Of a DNA stretch of 64,000 nt, positions 49,934 to 57,335 are shown in pieces. A program made the translations under genes and the position numbers. Under the pieces are notes generated by a model. The model was not told the origin of the DNA. It ran no database searches and saw only the letters and a list, made by a program, of their open reading frames with translations. This stretch comes from Streptomyces sp. DG1A-41. GTDB lineage: Bacteria; Actinomycetota; Actinomycetes; Streptomycetales; Streptomycetaceae. Each line of letters starts with the position of its first letter. The first letter of the stretch is position 1. The stretch is from positions 8,517,001 through 8,581,000 of the forward strand of contig NZ_CP146350.1 of NCBI RefSeq assembly GCF_037055355.1, in the 5' to 3' direction.

Positions 49934-51646
49934 ATGGAACTCGCCACTCCGCCACCGGCGGCGCGGGCCCCTGTCGCCTGGTACAGCTGGTGGTTGATGC
50001 CACTGGGCTTGGGAGGCGGGACGGTTGCCGCCACGTTCATGAGCTCGGAGCGACTAACCACGGCCGTCGCCGGTGTCGCGGCGACGGCGGCCGGTGCCGT
50101 GTGCGTACGCCTGCTGCTGCGCACCCGGGCCCAACTGAGCCGCGCGGAGGGTTCCTTCCGCGCCACACAGGCCGAACACAACCAGCAGTGGCAGCAGCAC
50201 GTGGCGGGCCTGGAACGGAAGTTCTCCGCCGAGCGCGTCACCCTGGAGTCCCAGCTCACCGAGCAGAACGCGGCCTACGAACGGCGCCTCGCCGAGCAGA
50301 GCGCCACGTACGAGTCGCAACTCGCCGACCAGTCCCGGGCGTACGAGGAACGGCTGACCGAGCAGGCCAGGTCCTACGAGGCCCAGCTCGCCGACCAGGC
50401 CGAGGTCTGGCAGGAGCAGTTGTCCCACCAGCTCGCCGCGGTCGCCCGGCTCGCCGACGAGCAACTGCCCGACGCCATGGCCAGGCTGCGTTCCGGCGAG
50501 GCCATCGACGACGTCCTGCCGACCGTCAACCAGTGCGCGAAGGTCAGCGCCGACCTCCAGGCCGAACTGCGCAAGCTGCTGCGCACGGCCCTGATCGGCC
50601 TCGAGGCGGAGTTCGACCGCTCGACCACCGCCGAGCAGGCCGTGATCAGCATCGGCAACCGCATCCACGTCCTGACCAGCAAGCTCCGCGGCCGACTCCA
50701 CGAGATGCAGGGCGAGCACGGCAGGCTCCCGGCCGTCGCCCGCGGTCTGATGGAGCTCGACCAGGCACTCGGCCCCGCCGACTCGCTCGCCGCGAGCATC
50801 GGTGTACTCGGCGGCTCGGACCGTCCGGGACGCCAGTGGCAGGAACCGCAGCGGCTGCTGAGCGTGGTGCGTGGCGGCATCGGCCGGATCAAGGACTTCC
50901 ACCGCGTCCAGGTGCGCCACCTGCCCGAACTCGGCGTCGACGGCGGCCTCGTGGACCACCTCACGCTGATCTTCGCCCACCTCCTCGACAACGCGGCCCG
51001 CTACTCGCCGCCCACCGAGCCGGTGCTCATCTCCGGCAAGGAGGTCCCCAACGGCGTCGGCATCGAGATCCAGGACTCCGGCAAGGGCCTGAGCGAGGAG
51101 AAGAAGCGCGAGGCCGAGCACGCCCTGGCCGGCACCGCGCCCGGCGCGGGCCTCGGCGGCATCACCGAGGACGCGAGCATCGGTCTGCGCGTCGTCGGCG
51201 CCCTGGCCCGCCGCTACGGCATCCGTGTCACCTTCGCGGACTCGCCGTGGCTCGGCACCTCCGTGGTGGTCGTGGTTCCCCACAAGTACTTCAGCCCGAT
51301 GCCCGCGGCCGCGACCGCCCAGGCCGCGCCCGCCCCGGAGGCCCGCCCCGCCGCGGCCGCCCCGGCCCGCGAGACGGCACCGGCGGCGCAGACGCAAAGC
51401 GTGGAGACCACCCCCGGCGGACTGCCCCGGCGCCGCAACAAGCGGAACGAGACGGACGGGCCCCGGCAGGCCGAGGGGACCGACCGGAGCACCGTCTCCG
51501 CCGTCCCGCCGGACGCCTCCTTCTCCGGCCTCGCGGCCTTCGCCACCGCCGGACGCGACGCCGAAGAGGCATCCCGCGCGGCCGACGACCGCGACACCAC
51601 CGCCGGACGCGAGTCCACCGAGCACCGCACCGAAGAGAGCGACTAG
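49934..51646 (+). CDS. cvnA: Conservon sensor kinase-like protein CvnA
   Basis: 570 residues. Two hydrophobic N-terminal segments (YSWWLMPLGLGGGTVAATFM and TTAVAGVAATAAGAVCVRLL) anchor it. A long coiled coil follows with repeats of E(R/S)xLxEQxxxYE, for example YERRLAEQSATYESQLADQS. The HATPase domain contains HLLDNAARYSPPTEP (N box) and IQDSGKGLSEEK (G1 box), without a clear phosphoacceptor His. The Ala/Pro tail is disordered. CvnA heads the four-gene conservon complex, likened to an eukaryotic GPCR module. ATG 49934 has GAAGG six bases upstream. Confidence 0.9.
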   Translation: MELATPPPAARAPVAWYSWWLMPLGLGGGTVAATFMSSERLTTAVAGVAATAAGAVCVRLLLRTRAQLSRAEGSFRATQAEHNQQWQQHVAGLERKFSAERVTLESQLTEQNAAYERRLAEQSATYESQLADQSRAYEERLTEQARSYEAQLADQAEVWQEQLSHQLAAVARLADEQLPDAMARLRSGEAIDDVLPTVNQCAKVSADLQAELRKLLRTALIGLEAEFDRSTTAEQAVISIGNRIHVLTSKLRGRLHEMQGEHGRLPAVARGLMELDQALGPADSLAASIGVLGGSDRPGRQWQEPQRLLSVVRGGIGRIKDFHRVQVRHLPELGVDGGLVDHLTLIFAHLLDNAARYSPPTEPVLISGKEVPNGVGIEIQDSGKGLSEEKKREAEHALAGTAPGAGLGGITEDASIGLRVVGALARRYGIRVTFADSPWLGTSVVVVVPHKYFSPMPAAATAQAAPAPEARPAAAAPARETAPAAQTQSVETTPGGLPRRRNKRNETDGPRQAEGTDRSTVSAVPPDASFSGLAAFATAGRDAEEASRAADDRDTTAGRESTEHRTEESD

Positions 51647-51651
51647 TCCTC

Positions 51652-52062
51652 ATGACGCAGCAAGGAACAGATGTGAGCTGGGCGCTCCGCGATCTCGTCG
51701 AAAGCATCCAGGAGATCAGTTTCGCCCTGGTGGCCTCCAGCGACGGCAAGGCCATCACCTCCTACGGCGCCGAAGACCCCGACGACGTCGACCGCTTCGC
51801 CGCCGTGGTGGCCGGCCTCCAGGCGCTGGCCCAGCCGGTCGCCGAGCAGTTCCCCAAGTACGCCGGGCAACTGCGCCTCGCGATGATCGAGGTCGACGGC
51901 GGGCACCTCTTCGTCGTCCGCGCCGGTGTGGAGACGTACCTCGGTGTCCTCGCCAGGGAGGGCCTCGACCAGGGCCTGCTCGGGCACCAGATGAGGGACC
52001 TGGCACGCAGGATGGGTGAGCTCCTCGGCACCACTCCGCGCCTGGAGGAGCACTCTGGATGA
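51652..52062 (+). CDS. cvnB: Roadblock/LC7 protein CvnB
   Basis: 136 residues. It fits the roadblock/LC7 fold: ISFALVASSDGKAITSYGAE, VAGLQALAQPVAEQFPKYAG and LFVVRAGVETYLGVLAREG. These proteins resemble MglB and regulate a partner GTPase, here CvnD. It starts 6 bp after cvnA and its stop overlaps the cvnC ATG (ATGA), so expression is tightly coupled. Confidence 0.92.
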   Translation: MTQQGTDVSWALRDLVESIQEISFALVASSDGKAITSYGAEDPDDVDRFAAVVAGLQALAQPVAEQFPKYAGQLRLAMIEVDGGHLFVVRAGVETYLGVLAREGLDQGLLGHQMRDLARRMGELLGTTPRLEEHSG

Positions 52063-52430
52063 GTGCTCCCCGCAGGCCGTCCGACCCGTCCGGTCTCGAG
52101 CGCTACTACGTCCTCACCGGAGGGCGCAGCGGACCGGGCGGTTCGGCGTCGAGCCTCGACGTGGCGACTCTCGTCGTCGCCCGCGCCGCCCCGTTACCGG
52201 GCATGCAGCACGAGCACGAGGAGATCCTCCGCCGCTGCCGCGATCCGCTGTCGGTCGCCGAACTCGGCGCCCACCTCGGACTGCCCTTCAACATTCTCGC
52301 CGTGCTGCTGTCGGACCTGCTGGACGCAGGTCGCGTCGAAGCCCGTGACCCCATCCCGGCACACGACGCCGGCCGCGGGCCCGACCTCGCGCTCCTTGAG
52401 GAGGTACTCAGTGGACTTGAAAGGCTTTGA
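52059..52430 (+). CDS. cvnC: DUF742 protein CvnC, with a TTA codon
   Basis: 123 residues, DUF742 family. A GLERYYVLTGGRSGP start is followed by a winged-helix-like region (RRCRDPLSVAELGAHLGLPF, NILAVLLSDLLDAGRVEARD). It is the third conservon partner. Codon 46 is TTA (52194-52196), the only one in the operon, so full translation should need the bldA leucyl-tRNA, linking the complex to development. Its 3' end overlaps cvnD by 20 bp. Confidence 0.92.
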   Translation: MSAPRRPSDPSGLERYYVLTGGRSGPGGSASSLDVATLVVARAAPLPGMQHEHEEILRRCRDPLSVAELGAHLGLPFNILAVLLSDLLDAGRVEARDPIPAHDAGRGPDLALLEEVLSGLERL

Positions 52431-53016
52431 CCAACCCGGAGGGCGGGCGGCCGGGGACACCCGCTCGGTGAAGGTGATGATCGCCGGCGGGTTCGGTACC
52501 GGGAAGACCACCATGGTCCGGTCGGTCAGCGACATCAAGCCGCTCACCACCGAGGAGACCCTCACCCAGGCCAGCGTCGACGTCGACGATCTCATCGGCG
52601 TCGCCGACAAGACGCAGACCACCGTCAGCCTGGACTTCGGCAAGATCGGCATCAACGAGAGCCTGGTGCTCTACCTCTTCGGCACGCCGGGCCAGGAACG
52701 GTTCTGGTTCCTGTGGAACGGGCTGTTCAAGGGGGCGCTCGGCGCGATCGTCCTGGTGGACACGCGCCGCCTGGAATCCAGTTTCCGGGCGATCGAGGAG
52801 ATGGAGCGGCAGGACGTCCCGTTCGTCGTCGCGCTGAACGTCTTCCCCGACTCCCGGAACTACCCGGTCGAGGAGATCCGGGACGCCCTGGACATCCCCG
52901 AGCACACCCCGGTCGTGGCCTTCGACGCCCGCGACCGGGCCTCCAGCCGTGACGTCCTCGTCGCCCTCATCCACCACCTGAAGGAACGCTCGGCCGTGGC
53001 CCTGGAGCCCCGATGA
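52411..53016 (+). CDS. cvnD: Conservon GTPase CvnD
   Basis: 201 residues of the MglA-like/Ras-like ATP-GTP-binding family. The P-loop is GGFGTGKTT near residues 28-36, and the switch II motif is FGTPGQERFWFLW. The protein cycles between GTP and GDP forms under CvnB and CvnA control. GTG 52411 is chosen because GAGGAGG lies upstream and family members start just before KVMIAGGFG. The stop overlaps the P450 start (ATGA). Confidence 0.92.
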   Translation: MDLKGFDQPGGRAAGDTRSVKVMIAGGFGTGKTTMVRSVSDIKPLTTEETLTQASVDVDDLIGVADKTQTTVSLDFGKIGINESLVLYLFGTPGQERFWFLWNGLFKGALGAIVLVDTRRLESSFRAIEEMERQDVPFVVALNVFPDSRNYPVEEIRDALDIPEHTPVVAFDARDRASSRDVLVALIHHLKERSAVALEPR

Positions 53017-54263
53017 ACGATCAGACCGACAACGGCCTCCAGGTTGTGCGAGGCTGCCCCGTCGCCCACCACGGGGCCGAACTCACCCGGCTGTACGGGC
53101 CGGAGGCCGCGACCGACCCCACGGGCATCTACGAGCGGCTGCGCAAGGAACACGGCTCCGTCGCGCCGGTGCTGCTCGAAGGCGACGTACCGGCCTGGCT
53201 CGTCCTCGGCTACCGCGACAACCGGCGGGTGCTCGACAACCCCCGCCAGTACAGCCGGGACGCCCGGATCTGGCGGGACTGGCGCGAGGGCCGGATCGAG
53301 GAGACCTCGCCGATCATGCCGATGGTCGGCTGGCGCCCCGACTGTGTGTCCCAGGACGGCGAACCGCACCGCAGGCTGCGCGGCGCCGTCACTGACGGGC
53401 TGCAGGCGGCGGCCGTCCGGGGCATCCGGCGGCACGTCACGCACTTCGCGAACAAGCAGATCGACGCGTTCGCCGACGCCGGGCGCGCCGACCTCGTGGC
53501 CGACTACGCCGAGCAACTGCCGATGCTCGTGCTCACCAGGATGCTGGGCCTTCCCGCGGCGGACGGGCTACGCCTGATCGAGTCGTGCGCCCAGGTCTTC
53601 AAGGGCGGTGAGGGCGCCCTCGAGCACAACGACCGGATCATGCAGATCCTCGCGGAACTCGCCGAGCGCAAGCGGGCCGAGCCGGGCTCCGACTTCGCCA
53701 CGGCCCTGCTGGAGCACCCCGCCGGCCTCGACCACGACGAGGTCGTCAGCCATCTGCGCCTGGTGCTGATCGCCGCGCACACCACCACCAGCAACCTGCT
53801 GGCCCGAGTCCTGCAACGGGTCCTCACCGACGCCGCCCGGCTGTCCGGTCTGGTCAGTGGGGAGCTGGACATCTCCTCAGTGGTGGAAGAGGTCATGTGG
53901 GACACCCCGCCGCTGTCCGTGCTGCCGGGCCGGTTCGCAACCGCCGACCTGGAGCTCGGAGGCCATCACGTCCAGGAGGGAGAACTGCTCGTCCTGGGCC
54001 TGGCCGCCGGCAACCTCGACCCGGAGGTACGGCCCGACTCGGCCGTCGCCGTGCAGGGCAACCAGTCGCACCTGGCGTTCAGCGCCGGACCGCACGAGTG
54101 CCCGGGGCAGAACATCGGCCAGTCCATCATCGAGATCGGCGTGGACGTCCTGCTGCACCGGCTGCCGGACCTGCGCCTGGCTGTGCCGCCGGAAGAACTC
54201 AGCTCGACCGCCTCCACCTGGGAGTCCCGGCTGGACAGCCTGCCGGTCGAGTTCGCCGTCTAG
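53013..54263 (+). CDS. Conservon-linked cytochrome P450, CYP157-like, ExxR replaced by ExxW
   Basis: 416 residues. The heme loop FSAGPHECPGQNIG has its Cys near 362 and the I-helix reads LIAAHTTTSNLLA. The normally invariant K-helix ExxR is EVMW here (VVEEVMWDTPPLSVLPGRF, about residue 292). Loss of the Arg at this site is known for the CYP157 family, whose genes lie in conservons. It is coupled to cvnD by a 4-bp overlap and needs separate redox partners. Its substrate is unknown; it might serve as the complex's effector. Confidence 0.9.
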   Translation: MNDQTDNGLQVVRGCPVAHHGAELTRLYGPEAATDPTGIYERLRKEHGSVAPVLLEGDVPAWLVLGYRDNRRVLDNPRQYSRDARIWRDWREGRIEETSPIMPMVGWRPDCVSQDGEPHRRLRGAVTDGLQAAAVRGIRRHVTHFANKQIDAFADAGRADLVADYAEQLPMLVLTRMLGLPAADGLRLIESCAQVFKGGEGALEHNDRIMQILAELAERKRAEPGSDFATALLEHPAGLDHDEVVSHLRLVLIAAHTTTSNLLARVLQRVLTDAARLSGLVSGELDISSVVEEVMWDTPPLSVLPGRFATADLELGGHHVQEGELLVLGLAAGNLDPEVRPDSAVAVQGNQSHLAFSAGPHECPGQNIGQSIIEIGVDVLLHRLPDLRLAVPPEELSSTASTWESRLDSLPVEFAV

Positions 54264-54279
54264 GCCACGCAGGCAGACC

Positions 54280-54308
54280 GTTGCCCGGCCGGCTTCCGGC
54301 CGGGCAAC
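54280..54308. terminator. Strong terminator at the end of the conservon
   Basis: GTTGCCCGGCCGG and CCGGCCGGGCAAC form a perfect 13-bp stem with a 3-nt loop (CTT), 17 bp after the P450 stop. It separates the conservon from the convergent unknown gene. Confidence 0.75.
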
Positions 54309-54473
54309 GCCGTGCGTGGGTGCAGGAGGTGGCTCACACGCGCGGACCACCGGCCGCTACGCCGCCACCGAGGACTTCATCGTCCTTTGCCGTGTCCGCG
54401 GTGGGGCCGGGCACAGGCTGGGCCGTTACCGCCACGGGTGCGAGCAGCGGCCCGAGCCTTCAGGATCGAGGCG

Positions 54474-56204
54474 TCAGCCGTCGAGCCAGTCGCCTGCGAC
54501 GCCCGTGGGACGGTATCCCGTGGCGTTCCAGAGGAAATGCGGGTGGGCACAGCCGAACATGTAGGCGAGCAGTGCGGTGTCTTCCCTCCCGGTCTGAGGG
54601 TCGTGCAGGGTGTGGAACCTCTCGGATCCGACTACGCCGGCGTCTTGTTGGACGCGACGGGCGCGGTCTGGCGATGGTGCGGCGCTGGATGCCTCCACGG
54701 CGGCGATGTAGGTGCGGCGCAAGATCTCCCATGTGCTGTCCGTGTTGCCGTACCAGGGGCCGTGCAGTGCTTCGAAGGCATGGAGCTCGGCGTCGAACAG
54801 AGGCCATGTCCGGGGGGACTGGGCTCGGCAGCGTGCGGACAGCTCGGCGGTCCGGGTGCTCAGTGCCGGTGTGGTGGGCCGCGGAGCGATGGTGAGGGTG
54901 GTGCCGTGGGTGAGGATGCCGGTGCATGGGTTGGGCTGCAGGTCGCACAGCGGGCACTCCTCGGCCGGGGGGAGGCCCTGGGTGATGCCGTCGAACCAGA
55001 GGGCGTGGCGGCCCGTGAGCCCCATCCAGACGATGGTGGTGGTCATCAGCCAGGTGTTCCACATCGGGCTGTGGGCCTCGGGCATGCAGCCGTACTTGAC
55101 GAGGGCTATCGCGCAGGCAGCGTAGAGCGCCTTGGTGTGGGTGGGCATTTCGGCGAGCCAGAAGTTGCTGATCTCGCCGGTGAGGGCGTCGGCTCGTACA
55201 TCGGCCATGTCGTCGATGACGCGGCACAGCAGCAGGGAGGCGAGGTTTTCTTCCTGCCAGAGTTCGGTGTCGGGGGCGACGTGCCAGAACAGGCAGTCCA
55301 GCATCTGCAGGGCTGAGTAGGTGCTCTGGTTGAGCGGGTTGGTCTGGGGGAGCATGACGCTGCCCGCGTCGTGCTGTTGGAGCCAGTACTCGTCGACGGA
55401 TCGCTTGTGGGCTGCGAAGAGTCCGGAGACCAGGGCCCGTGCGCTGTTGGTGCTGAAATTCTCGGCCAGGCGGCCTTCGACGTGTCGGGTGAGGCGCGTT
55501 GTGTCGATGGTGTCGATCACGCGCTTGTATTCGTGGAAGACGAGAATGTCGTTTTCGAAGCGGTGGCGGTGGCCGAGGTCTCGTTCGAGGTCGTTCATCT
55601 GCCGGGTCCAGGACCATCCACCGGTCAGGACACTGTCGAGTTCCCGGCGGTATGGCCAGGTCTTGACGGCGAGGGGACGACCGGCGCTCTGCCGCCAACG
55701 GTAGTCGTCCAGCGTGCGTGCGGGGGGCGTGGGCAGCCGACGGCACAGAGGGCAGGCGCAGACGGTTGTCTGCTCTTCCTCGCGCGGCGGGGTGAGTGCC
55801 CGGCTCCTCCAGGCCCCTTCCAGCATCGTGCAGGTCAGTCTGCAGACCTCAACGTCGGTGCTGACTTGGGGGAAGGCTGCTTCGATCAGGCGCAGGCTGG
55901 TGTCGAGGTGCCTCAACCTGGCGTAGCCCTCCTCGTCGGGCGGGAGGAACGCGGGCCGCGCCAGATGGAGGGCTCCCTCCACACGCAGCGTGGTGCTGGA
56001 GTGGGGGGAGCCGAATGCGTTCAGCCGCTGCTGAGCGGCGTTCTGGGACCTTCGGTACGGCTCCGTGCTCCCATTGATGTGTTTCACCAAGAGGCGGGCC
56101 AGGGTGTCCCCCGCCTCCGTGGGCTGGAGCTGGGCGCTTGGCTGCGCCGGGAGCGAGCTGCCGGCGGACGCCTTCGGAACAGCACCTGCGACTCGAGATT
56201 TCAC
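54474..56204 (-). CDS. Unrecognised 576-residue protein with a DDMAD motif (possible isoprenoid-type enzyme)
   Basis: From GTG 56204 (GGGAG upstream); the frame stays open to 56387. No family was recognised. The protein looks largely helical. Residues 331-335 are DDMAD within LLCRVIDDMADVRADALTGE, matching the DDxxD metal motif of class I terpene or prenyl synthases. An earlier ENDILVFHEYKRVID loosely recalls the NSE motif but lies on the wrong side of DDxxD. Two Cys pairs, CACPLC and ECPLC, could bind metal. Codon use is less GC-biased than in its neighbours, so it may be acquired. A terpene synthase remnant lies just upstream. Confidence 0.65.
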   Translation of the reverse strand: MKSRVAGAVPKASAGSSLPAQPSAQLQPTEAGDTLARLLVKHINGSTEPYRRSQNAAQQRLNAFGSPHSSTTLRVEGALHLARPAFLPPDEEGYARLRHLDTSLRLIEAAFPQVSTDVEVCRLTCTMLEGAWRSRALTPPREEEQTTVCACPLCRRLPTPPARTLDDYRWRQSAGRPLAVKTWPYRRELDSVLTGGWSWTRQMNDLERDLGHRHRFENDILVFHEYKRVIDTIDTTRLTRHVEGRLAENFSTNSARALVSGLFAAHKRSVDEYWLQQHDAGSVMLPQTNPLNQSTYSALQMLDCLFWHVAPDTELWQEENLASLLLCRVIDDMADVRADALTGEISNFWLAEMPTHTKALYAACAIALVKYGCMPEAHSPMWNTWLMTTTIVWMGLTGRHALWFDGITQGLPPAEECPLCDLQPNPCTGILTHGTTLTIAPRPTTPALSTRTAELSARCRAQSPRTWPLFDAELHAFEALHGPWYGNTDSTWEILRRTYIAAVEASSAAPSPDRARRVQQDAGVVGSERFHTLHDPQTGREDTALLAYMFGCAHPHFLWNATGYRPTGVAGDWLDG

Positions 56205-56344: not shown

Positions 56345-56473
56345 TTACGAACGACCGCGAGGGGCACGACTGCTGCGTTGACGGCACTCCTGCTGCAAGG
56401 CGAGCACCCGCATCGCCGCCTCAGCTGTGTTGATCAGGAAGCACTCGCGGCCCGTCAGGCGTAGCGCGACCAC
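56345..56473 (-). CDS. Possible small ORF or gene fragment (42 codons)
   Basis: From GTG 56473 to TAA at 56345 the minus strand reads VALRLTGRECFLINTAEAAM then RVLALQQECRQRSS. It has a protein-like amphipathic pattern rather than the Arg/Pro-rich look of shadow frames. No start signal is clear, and it overlaps the terpene synthase remnant in another frame. It may be the C-terminal piece of an unidentified gene. Confidence 0.3.
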   Translation of the reverse strand: MVALRLTGRECFLINTAEAAMRVLALQQECRQRSSRAPRGRS

Positions 56474-56561
56474 CGGATCCGAGACGTGCTACTTCGCCCG
56501 AGGCGTGTGGGTAGCTGACAGGGGTGTCGAAGGGGAGGTCGAACCGGACGTCCTGAGGCAT
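56421..56561 (-). pseudogene. N-terminal remnant of a class I terpene synthase
   Basis: ATG 56561, with GAAAGGAAG upstream, begins MPQDVRFDLPFDTPVS, very close to the start of pentalenene synthase-type cyclases (MPQDVDF followed by a Pro-rich stretch). It continues YPHASGEVARL, which resembles the helix just before the DDxxD region (YPHA...), so some 50 residues between are missing. It then runs into unrelated sequence and stops at 56421. The start region is well kept, but no catalytic motif remains. Confidence 0.6.
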
Positions 56562-56870
56562 GCGCTTCCTTTCGGGAGACGGACCGCAGAGTCCCCCACT
56601 CCTGCGAACGGACGGTGCCGTGACCGTCCGCGCACTCGAACTGGGCTTCGCAGTCCGAAAGTTGAACCGAGAAGCGGTACGAGGCTGCCCACGGCGTGAA
56701 TAAGCCATTCCGTGACCGTGCCGTGATCTCCGTTACTGCTCAAAGCACATGAGCTGCGTATACTCCCTCGTCCCTCACCCGGTAGCGGCTTGTCCGCCGA
56801 GCCTTCGACGCTTCGGAACGCCACACTGGTCGGAGTCCGTTCCAACGACTCTCCAGGAGGCGCACCGACG
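56562..56870. other. Non-coding gap upstream of the PPOX gene
   Basis: About 310 bp without a convincing gene. GC content is lower than in flanking genes, for example around 56725-56770. It holds the ribosome-binding site CAGGAGG (56854-56860) of the next gene and the promoter side of the terpene synthase remnant. No palindrome or terminator stood out. Confidence 0.5.
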
Positions 56871-57335
56871 ATGACGTCCGCACCCGTACGCACTGCTGAG
56901 CAGCGCACGAAGGACACCCTGCACCGTCTGGAACACGACGTGGACGCCTGGGTCGCCACGGCCGACGGCACGTCGGGGACTCCGTACCTCGTCCCGCTGT
57001 CCTTCCTCTGGAACGGCTCGTATCTCCTGTTCGCCACGCCCGCGTCGAGCCCCACCGGACGGAACCTCGCCGCGACCGGCCGGACCCGCGTCGGCATCGG
57101 GCCGACCCGTGACGTCGTGCTCGTCGAGGGCACCGTCGAGACCGTCCAGCCCGGCGAGCTGACCGAGCAGGACGCCGAACTCTTCGCCGCCAAAACCGGG
57201 TTCGACCCCCGCCTGCTGGCCACGCCGTACCTCTACTTCCGCGTCGTGCCTCGGCGGGTGCAGGCCTGGCGGGAGGCCGACGAGCTGGACGGCCGCGAAC
57301 TCATGCGCGACGGACGGTGGCTGACGGCCGACTGA
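56871..57335 (+). CDS. Pyridoxamine 5'-phosphate oxidase-family (FMN split-barrel) protein
   Basis: 154 residues from ATG 56871, with CAGGAGG upstream; longer in-frame starts to 56790 lack a site. The split-barrel core is seen in VDAWVATADGTSGTPYLVPL, SFLWNGSYLLFATPASSPTG and RVGIGPTRDVVLVEGTVETV. Such short proteins bind FMN or F420, or degrade heme, and are often annotated PPOX-class F420-dependent enzymes. A deazaflavin-type enzyme lies 4 kb away but is not linked. The cofactor cannot be decided. Confidence 0.82.
   Translation: MTSAPVRTAEQRTKDTLHRLEHDVDAWVATADGTSGTPYLVPLSFLWNGSYLLFATPASSPTGRNLAATGRTRVGIGPTRDVVLVEGTVETVQPGELTEQDAELFAAKTGFDPRLLATPYLYFRVVPRRVQAWREADELDGRELMRDGRWLTAD

Follow-up and report, generated by a model that had tools for sequence, protein, structure and literature searches.

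Which protein stands where a sesquiterpene cyclase gene used to be, and does it do the same kind of work? The question is raised by a gene without annotation in Streptomyces sp. DG1A-41, which encodes a protein of 576 amino acids (aa) and lies in a stretch of 64,000 nucleotides (nt) analysed here as a whole (NZ_CP146350.1, 8,517,001 to 8,581,000; the window). The best explanation, to which we give a probability of about 0.6, is that the product is a divergent metal-dependent enzyme of the isoprenoid-synthase fold that took over the locus of the cyclase, and that it binds and ionises a prenyl diphosphate to yield a terpene or prenyl product. Enzyme class, fold, metal binding, substrate, reaction and coupling to the neighbouring cytochrome P450 are predictions throughout. 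It is probably a new kind of terpene-making enzyme because it sits at the site of a terpene enzyme in its relatives, often beside the remnants of that enzyme.

Replacement of a terpene cyclase gene

The original occupant of the site is seen in related genomes. Long matches (at least 254 bits) to the longest cyclase remnant (locus L045) were found in 30 of 295 Streptomyces genomes (138 with any match), and 14 of these 30 loci were taken as 18-kb stretches. All 14 have an open cyclase gene of 332-343 codons, tail to tail with a conservon P450 gene that is followed by cvnD, cvnB and cvnA, and the gene for the 576-aa protein is in none of these stretches. The 14 cyclases have 78-91% protein identity to a plasmid-borne reference (L076, residues 1-343); the four scanned with Pfam are PF19086 terpene synthases, and one site cyclase scanned with NCBIfam scores above the cut-off of the 7-epi-alpha-eudesmol synthase equivalog (697.6 vs 680 bits). 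The enzyme of that name from S. viridochromogenes is known to convert farnesyl diphosphate to this sesquiterpene (PMC6604706).

The window preserves both edges of such a locus:

56515-57066, minus: colinear with the upstream flank of the cyclase gene and its first 47 nt (88% to L134, an intact-cyclase locus)
56421-56561, minus: 5′ remnant of the 7-epi-alpha-eudesmol synthase gene, with the start codon and ~16 colinear codons, then divergent, and an in-frame stop after 46 codons
54474-56204, minus: coding sequence of the 576-aa protein without annotation; start GTG at 56204, common to many close relatives
54339-54374, minus: inverted 36-bp fragment from the 3′ end of the cyclase gene (97% to the remnant in L090)
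53919-54305, minus: colinear with the region just past the cyclase stop codon, into the P450 3′ end (83% to L134)
53013-54263, plus: conservon cytochrome P450, convergent with the gene (Pfam PF00067, 6.4e-8)
50039-53016, plus: conservon genes cvnA (HATPase_c), cvnB (Robl_LC7), cvnC (DUF742) and cvnD (ATP_bind_1), by Pfam

The open reading frame (ORF) at 54474-56204 is genuine (576 aa plus stop). The 5′ remnant has 87.5% identity to cyclase residues 1-16, and the best NCBIfam match of the P450 is pentalenolactone synthase (105.8 bits, under the cut-off of 700); the cvn names are those we take to apply to this conservon. An initial annotation, made from the sequence alone, had noted a terpene synthase remnant upstream and the converging P450, and had suggested that the gene arrived with or replaced a lost cyclase. 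Remnant and convergence are real, and there is strong support for replacement, since related species have an intact 7-epi-alpha-eudesmol synthase at exactly this site and remnants of it flank the gene in many loci.

A contig scan with two peptide patterns gave 62 loci with the gene, and with the window these make 63, whose flanks were aligned with nine intact-cyclase loci. Both flanks are colinear in 43 of 63, only the upstream flank in 8, only the downstream flank in 2 and neither in 10; L044, L058 and L067, three of the one-sided loci, are at contig ends. Upstream matches in Streptomyces end from -159 to +357 relative to the cyclase start, while 21 of 45 downstream matches start exactly at nt 1042, ten bases past the cyclase stop, 18 slightly later and 6 earlier. 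Pieces of the cyclase gene were detected in 39 of 93 upstream and 8 of 93 downstream flanks (E 0.05), counts in which several genomes appear twice, the 39 include one intact cyclase (Actinomadura L059) and some downstream matches are weak. Pieces of the 3′ end lie behind the gene in L009, L012, L045, L081, L083, L090, L094 and L100; that of L045 corresponds to cyclase residues 279-343 (60% identity), and those of L009 and L083 are weak. In nine loci (L026, L032, L033, L036, L039, L044, L046, L053 and L058) a script-called ORF starts at the cyclase start codon itself, with a similar AGGA-type ribosome-binding site and the first residues of the cyclase (M[PA]Q...) retained. A tblastn search with 14 cyclases against 92 loci found no full-length cyclase beside the gene in Streptomyces, the longest match, L059 apart, covering 138 residues. 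Since the flanks are colinear, cyclase remnants persist and the cyclase start codon is in use in some species, these comparisons demonstrate, as far as genome sequence can, that the gene took over the place and partly the start of the cyclase in about forty Streptomyces genomes.

Descent of the gene from a tandem of two terpene synthases (TS1-gene-TS2) was considered and is not favoured, because upstream pieces in Streptomyces derive from the 5′ half of the cyclase gene and downstream pieces from its 3′ end.

The order of events was approached through the P450, with a tree made by a quick method from 65 rows (51 with the gene, 14 with the cyclase; root not inferred). Forty-four gene rows form two clades with support; both belong to a larger supported group of 48 rows, the other 4 being cyclase rows, and outside this group stand 10 cyclase rows and 7 gene rows (those with the gene divergent from cvnA, and L055). 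The tree needs four label changes and does not separate one replacement from two; on these sequence patterns the cyclase looks ancestral at the site.

Some loci depart from this arrangement. In L022, L024, L031, L037 and L052 the gene and a cyclase 5′ fragment lie away from the conservon, as if moved as one unit, and in L031 and L037 a second P450 (cluster 41) adjoins the gene, with relatives near intact cyclases in L137 and L138. Streptomyces sp. 378 (G340) carries an intact cyclase at the conservon site (L134) and, elsewhere, a copy of the gene with a cyclase 5′ remnant (L052/L141).

A conserved family outside known profiles

The 576-aa protein has no match in Pfam or NCBIfam, even at E 10, in line with the initial annotation, which had recognised no known family. 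The term orphan has to be dropped: a search of 5.8 billion proteins, with candidates restricted to those having exact words in common with the query, gave 153 relatives at E<=10 (best 120 of 153 listed), in Streptomyces and four other genera. With two extra searches from divergent members the listed relatives amount to 142 protein clusters, none of them under 49% identity to the query that found it. Single-sequence and profile searches of the PDB gave nothing relevant, viral models gave no match, and a plasmid collection gave two weak matches from Paracoccus.

Carriers are scattered: 31 of 392 Streptomyces genomes (own genome counted; one match partial), 8 of 150 related genomes, and 5 of 394 genomes in a class-wide sample, every one Streptomyces. 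The 62 scanned loci comprise 58 from Streptomyces (L058 and L067 being fragments of one metagenome bin) and one each from Actinomadura, Allorhizocola, Nonomuraea and Nocardia. No genome among the 392 has more than one full copy; partial matches to C-terminal parts (G295:C1:887941-888138 and G325:C137:47759-48250) are possibly decayed or split copies. The member from Streptomyces violaceus (P0040) is labelled 'transposase' by one source, probably a misannotation.

Weaker codon bias than in the neighbours had been reported for the gene. This holds against most of them, its G+C content at third codon positions being 0.84 vs 0.92 for the P450, 0.92 for cvnA, 0.93 for a glyoxalase-like gene, 0.90 for a GST-like gene and 0.88 for cvnB, but one further neighbour is near it (0.86) and cvnC lies below (0.80). 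The ratio of nonsynonymous to synonymous substitution rates (Ka/Ks) is 0.26-0.48 between the window copy and 12 relatives, with a median of 0.41 and a maximum of 0.80 over 1484 pairs (Ks 0.1 to 1), so that the gene is under purifying selection, though not a very strong one.

Conservation was counted over 142 aligned members (141 listed relatives and the window protein). The segments that matter for what follows are:

55743-55760, minus: C149-x-C151-xx-C154, where the helical domain begins, possibly a metal staple
55578-55595, minus: N204-D205-x-E/D207-x-D209, where predicted helix 192-208 ends, a candidate for the first metal motif
55548-55556, minus: E217-N218-D219 (E-D-D in the family), from the conservation count
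55200-55214, minus: DDMAD, residues 331-335, putatively at the position of the second metal motif, as argued from structural-alignment ranges
55173-55199, minus: extension past DDMAD, residues 336-344 (R337, D339, G343 and E344, each 142/142)
55005-55010, minus: R399-H400, basic pair after helix 382-396 (each 141/142, one gap)
54945-54956, minus: C417-xx-C420, end of the helical domain (each 141/142, one gap)

Nineteen of the positions counted, mostly acidic or basic, are invariant (R201, D205, D219, E225, R228, K267, R268, Q300, D303, R328, D332, D335, R337, D339, G343, E344, H356, K370 and E376), as is M333. The DDxxD-type motif and the two CxxC-type cysteine pairs singled out by the initial annotation are all present, the former within predicted helix 318-342. 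It is also conserved, the form [DN]DMxD occurring in 142/142 members (131 with D at position 331, 11 with N). N204 is kept in 130/142 and D209 in 129/142, and residue 218, N in the window copy, is D in the other 141. Cysteines C121, C151, C154, C373 and C459 are kept in all members and C149, C417 and C420 in 141/142. Because the conserved pairs bracket the predicted isoprenoid-synthase-like domain, their pattern suggests a structural metal site; to our knowledge such a site is not known in terpene synthases.

Predicted fold and metal motifs

Two AlphaFold models, of the whole protein and of a trimmed domain, are mediocre, the latter the poorer. Compared with known structures by VIA-align, each model has 31 top rows that are all terpene, squalene/dehydrosqualene or prenyl diphosphate synthases, so that in both runs several families of one superfamily come ahead of any unrelated row. 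Foldseek with the trimmed model returned 13 rows, of which 9 have the isoprenoid-synthase fold, all with E above 3.

Several results weigh against an isoprenoid synthase. VIA-align Z scores are at most 6.7 throughout, weak in absolute terms, and Foldseek gave no significant match for the models. HHalign of the 142 members (effective number of sequences, Neff, 2.3) against 14 canonical terpene synthases gave E 0.36, inside the range of 25 control families (0.028-0.77), and a position-specific scoring matrix (PSSM) of the NSE motif from 15 canonical enzymes scored the target at -5.4 bits, a value equalled or exceeded by 235 of 1152 background proteins. The low confidence of the trimmed-domain model also weakens the fold searches made with it, and the Pfam scan at E 10 gave no profile match to PF19086, PF03936 or PF00348. 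The protein is not filed as a canonical terpene synthase because HHalign and the NSE PSSM are negative. The initial annotation had named two outcomes that would speak against its idea, a predicted structure lacking the isoprenoid-synthase fold and a DDMAD that varies among homologues, and neither turned up. Predicted fold and genomic context favour its suggestion of a non-canonical terpene or prenyl synthase, against weak structural matches and two failed sequence tests.

These low scores, the low model confidence and the negative profile tests leave appreciable, if minor, weight on chance likeness, the protein then being an unrelated helical enzyme (a reading that overlaps the tailoring and accessory proteins considered below, and the estimates do not sum to one). 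It would have to account for 31 top rows from one superfamily but several families in both VIA-align runs, for the 9 of 13 Foldseek rows of the same superfamily, albeit at high E, and for a genomic context that is independent of structure.

DDMAD had been read as a first (DDxxD) metal motif. If the structural alignments are taken to be sequential, that reading is rejected, as the position of DDMAD fits the second motif instead. Model residues 182-400 pair with 245-522 of 5-epi-aristolochene synthase (200 residues aligned), placing residue 331 at 394-453, where we take the NSE/DTE motif to be at 444-452 and DDxxD at 301-305. In human geranylgeranyl diphosphate (GGPP) synthase, compared with the trimmed model, residue 331 falls at 162-231, a range including D188 of the D188Y entry; D188 presumably belongs to the second motif, the first being near 64. 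These placements come from aligned ranges, not from residue-by-residue alignment, and in the models DDMAD fits the second metal motif (NSE/DTE or the second Asp-rich motif), the first being left, on our inference, to N204-D205-x-E/D-x-D209 or E217-D218-D219.

The extended motif can be read by eye as NSE-like ([DN]DMxDxRxDxxxGExxN), a post hoc reading. A regular expression for it matched 0 of 1152 background proteins, but was composed after seeing the target, and its short form matched 5 of 1152. R399-H400 may be the equivalent of the RY pair of terpene synthases, but lies 68 residues from DDMAD, vs 85-98 residues to the usual RY-like pair in 13 canonical enzymes (two of which have extra pairs at 56 and 68; a 14th, L069, is ambiguous at 91-112). 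Because the PSSM is at background and the regular expression post hoc, the NSE/RY likeness is not used as evidence.

On the preferred reading, an alpha-helical isoprenoid-synthase-like domain would span approximately residues 150-410, between the conserved cysteine pairs. A prenyl diphosphate would be bound via divalent metal on acidic residues at two places, with N204/D205/D209 or E217/D218/D219 as ligands on the first side and D331/D332/D335/D339 on the second; ionisation or chain transfer inside the helical pocket would give a terpene or prenyl product, which would be handed to the convergent P450 beside the conservon.

Evidence from other genera and layouts

Actinomadura rudentiformis (L059) has an intact terpene synthase gene (PF19086, 154.9 bits) upstream of the family gene; its product is related to the eudesmol synthase but scores under the cut-off for it (325.7 of 680). 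Neighbouring genes encode a P450, a GMC oxidoreductase, HMG-CoA synthase, HMG-CoA reductase, a GHMP kinase, diphosphomevalonate decarboxylase and a member of the FMN-dehydrogenase family, possibly a type 2 isopentenyl diphosphate isomerase. Since gene and cyclase coexist here, the gene need not replace a cyclase, and the protein could instead be a terpenoid tailoring or binding protein (isomerase, oxygenase or carrier) that once acted on the cyclase product and, when the cyclase was lost, was kept for a different substrate. Terpene clusters do contain unannotated proteins of this sort (EutC and AlbU; PMC11574762). We hold this unlikely, somewhat more so than chance likeness: in Streptomyces loci the gene persists without a full-length cyclase beside it, the structural matches favour isoprenoid synthases, and EutC is reported to resemble a retinaldehyde-binding protein (PMC11574762), whereas the 576-aa protein models as helical.

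Allorhizocola L061 has a polyprenyl synthetase gene (227 aa called), DXS and GcpE at most ~5 kb upstream. No clear isoprenoid gene was found among the neighbours tested in Nonomuraea L063 (3), Nocardia L064 (4) and S. candidus L066 (3); a neighbour in L066 is a P450, and one in L064 is a flavoprotein that weakly matches lycopene cyclase and geranylgeranyl reductase.

Adjacency to the conservon and P450 recurs in a second layout, with the gene divergent from cvnA, in six Streptomyces loci (L054, L056, L057, L060, L062 and L068). This would suit a protein that serves the conservon-P450 unit as a partner, as a regulator or in signalling and whose landing in the cyclase gene was incidental, an explanation that we consider improbable: the flanks examined in the four loci from other genera (L059, L061, L063 and L064) contain no conservon genes, two of them have isoprenoid genes, and the invariant acidic and basic residues are enzyme-like. 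Finally, a selfish or mobile (transposase-like) gene that struck the cyclase gene by chance would explain the position in gene remains, the patchy presence (31/392), the five displaced loci and the 'transposase' label of P0040, but is very hard to reconcile with the other observations. None of the 392 genomes has a second full copy, the site is fixed in most loci, and a comparison of the 2 kb upstream with the 1.2 kb downstream at 7 distinct loci (8 entries, L052 and L141 being one locus) gave no inverted repeats at E 0.01; purifying selection, use of the cyclase start codon and adjacent isoprenoid genes in other genera also speak against it.

Candidate product and significance

A divergent isoprenoid synthase at this site would bear on genome mining for terpenoids, which is based on known profiles, since here an unannotated family stands at the former place of a profiled cyclase. 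Because it does so behind the upstream region of the cyclase, genomes scored as having lost a sesquiterpene may make another. If the enzyme is active, non-canonical terpene synthases would gain another class, nature would have exchanged one terpene-forming enzyme next to the same P450 for another that looks unrelated, and terpenoids of unexplained origin would have a concrete candidate. The full claim, of a new terpene synthase class whose helical domain is anchored by cysteines, whose metal motifs are unusual and which replaced a canonical sesquiterpene cyclase under its upstream region in ~forty Streptomyces genomes, is a long shot when all its parts are taken together. Among the titles and abstract openings listed by literature word searches none concerned the family, although words could miss an unnamed one; two papers combine conservon with terpene, and none of those searched combines conservon, P450 and terpene cyclase.

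One carrier, S. olindensis DAUFPE 5622 (L051), has both flanks colinear with the cyclase locus. It produces olindenones, rearranged drimane sesquiterpenes for which the authors of the study were unable to name the cyclase (PMC12453296), and the family could be the missing enzyme. The link is a testable lead only, because the authors propose a protonation-type mechanism and name another weak candidate (PMC12453296).

Elsewhere in the host genome, a geosmin synthase is in two reading frames (G000:C1:7208583-7210291; L002 and L003), which suggests a frameshift or sequencing error, and another terpene synthase (G000:C1:1064464; L005) has a degenerate NSE region (IPDLFSAVKE) and an adjoining P450-like frame.

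Comparison with known systems

The closest systems are the canonical class I terpene synthases of bacteria (PF19086), above all 7-epi-alpha-eudesmol synthase (NF041564), with which the family has in common the site, the upstream region and, in nine loci, the start codon, as well as a predicted superfamily fold in which an acidic motif stands where the second metal motif would be. It differs from them in showing no similarity by hmmscan, HHalign or PSSM, in its length (576 vs ~343 residues) and in its extra N- and C-terminal helical parts and conserved cysteine pairs. E-isoprenyl diphosphate synthases (PF00348; GGPP, octaprenyl and farnesyl) also come near the top of the structural comparison with the trimmed model, and the family DDMxD resembles their second Asp-rich motif; unlike them, the family has no Pfam match and, as candidate first motif, N-D-x-E/D-x-D or E-D-D rather than DDxxD. 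Like the non-canonical classes ID, IE and IF (PeuTPS and others; PMC11234867), it is an unannotated actinobacterial family with a predicted class I-like fold and non-canonical motifs, but the PeuTPS motifs D(N/D), ND and RXXKD (PMC11234867), compared by motif description, are not evident in the 576-aa protein; the family may nevertheless coincide with one of these classes. With EutC and AlbU (PMC11574762) it shares the character of family-less proteins in actinobacterial terpenoid clusters, a likeness of description, EutC itself being reported as similar to a retinaldehyde-binding protein.
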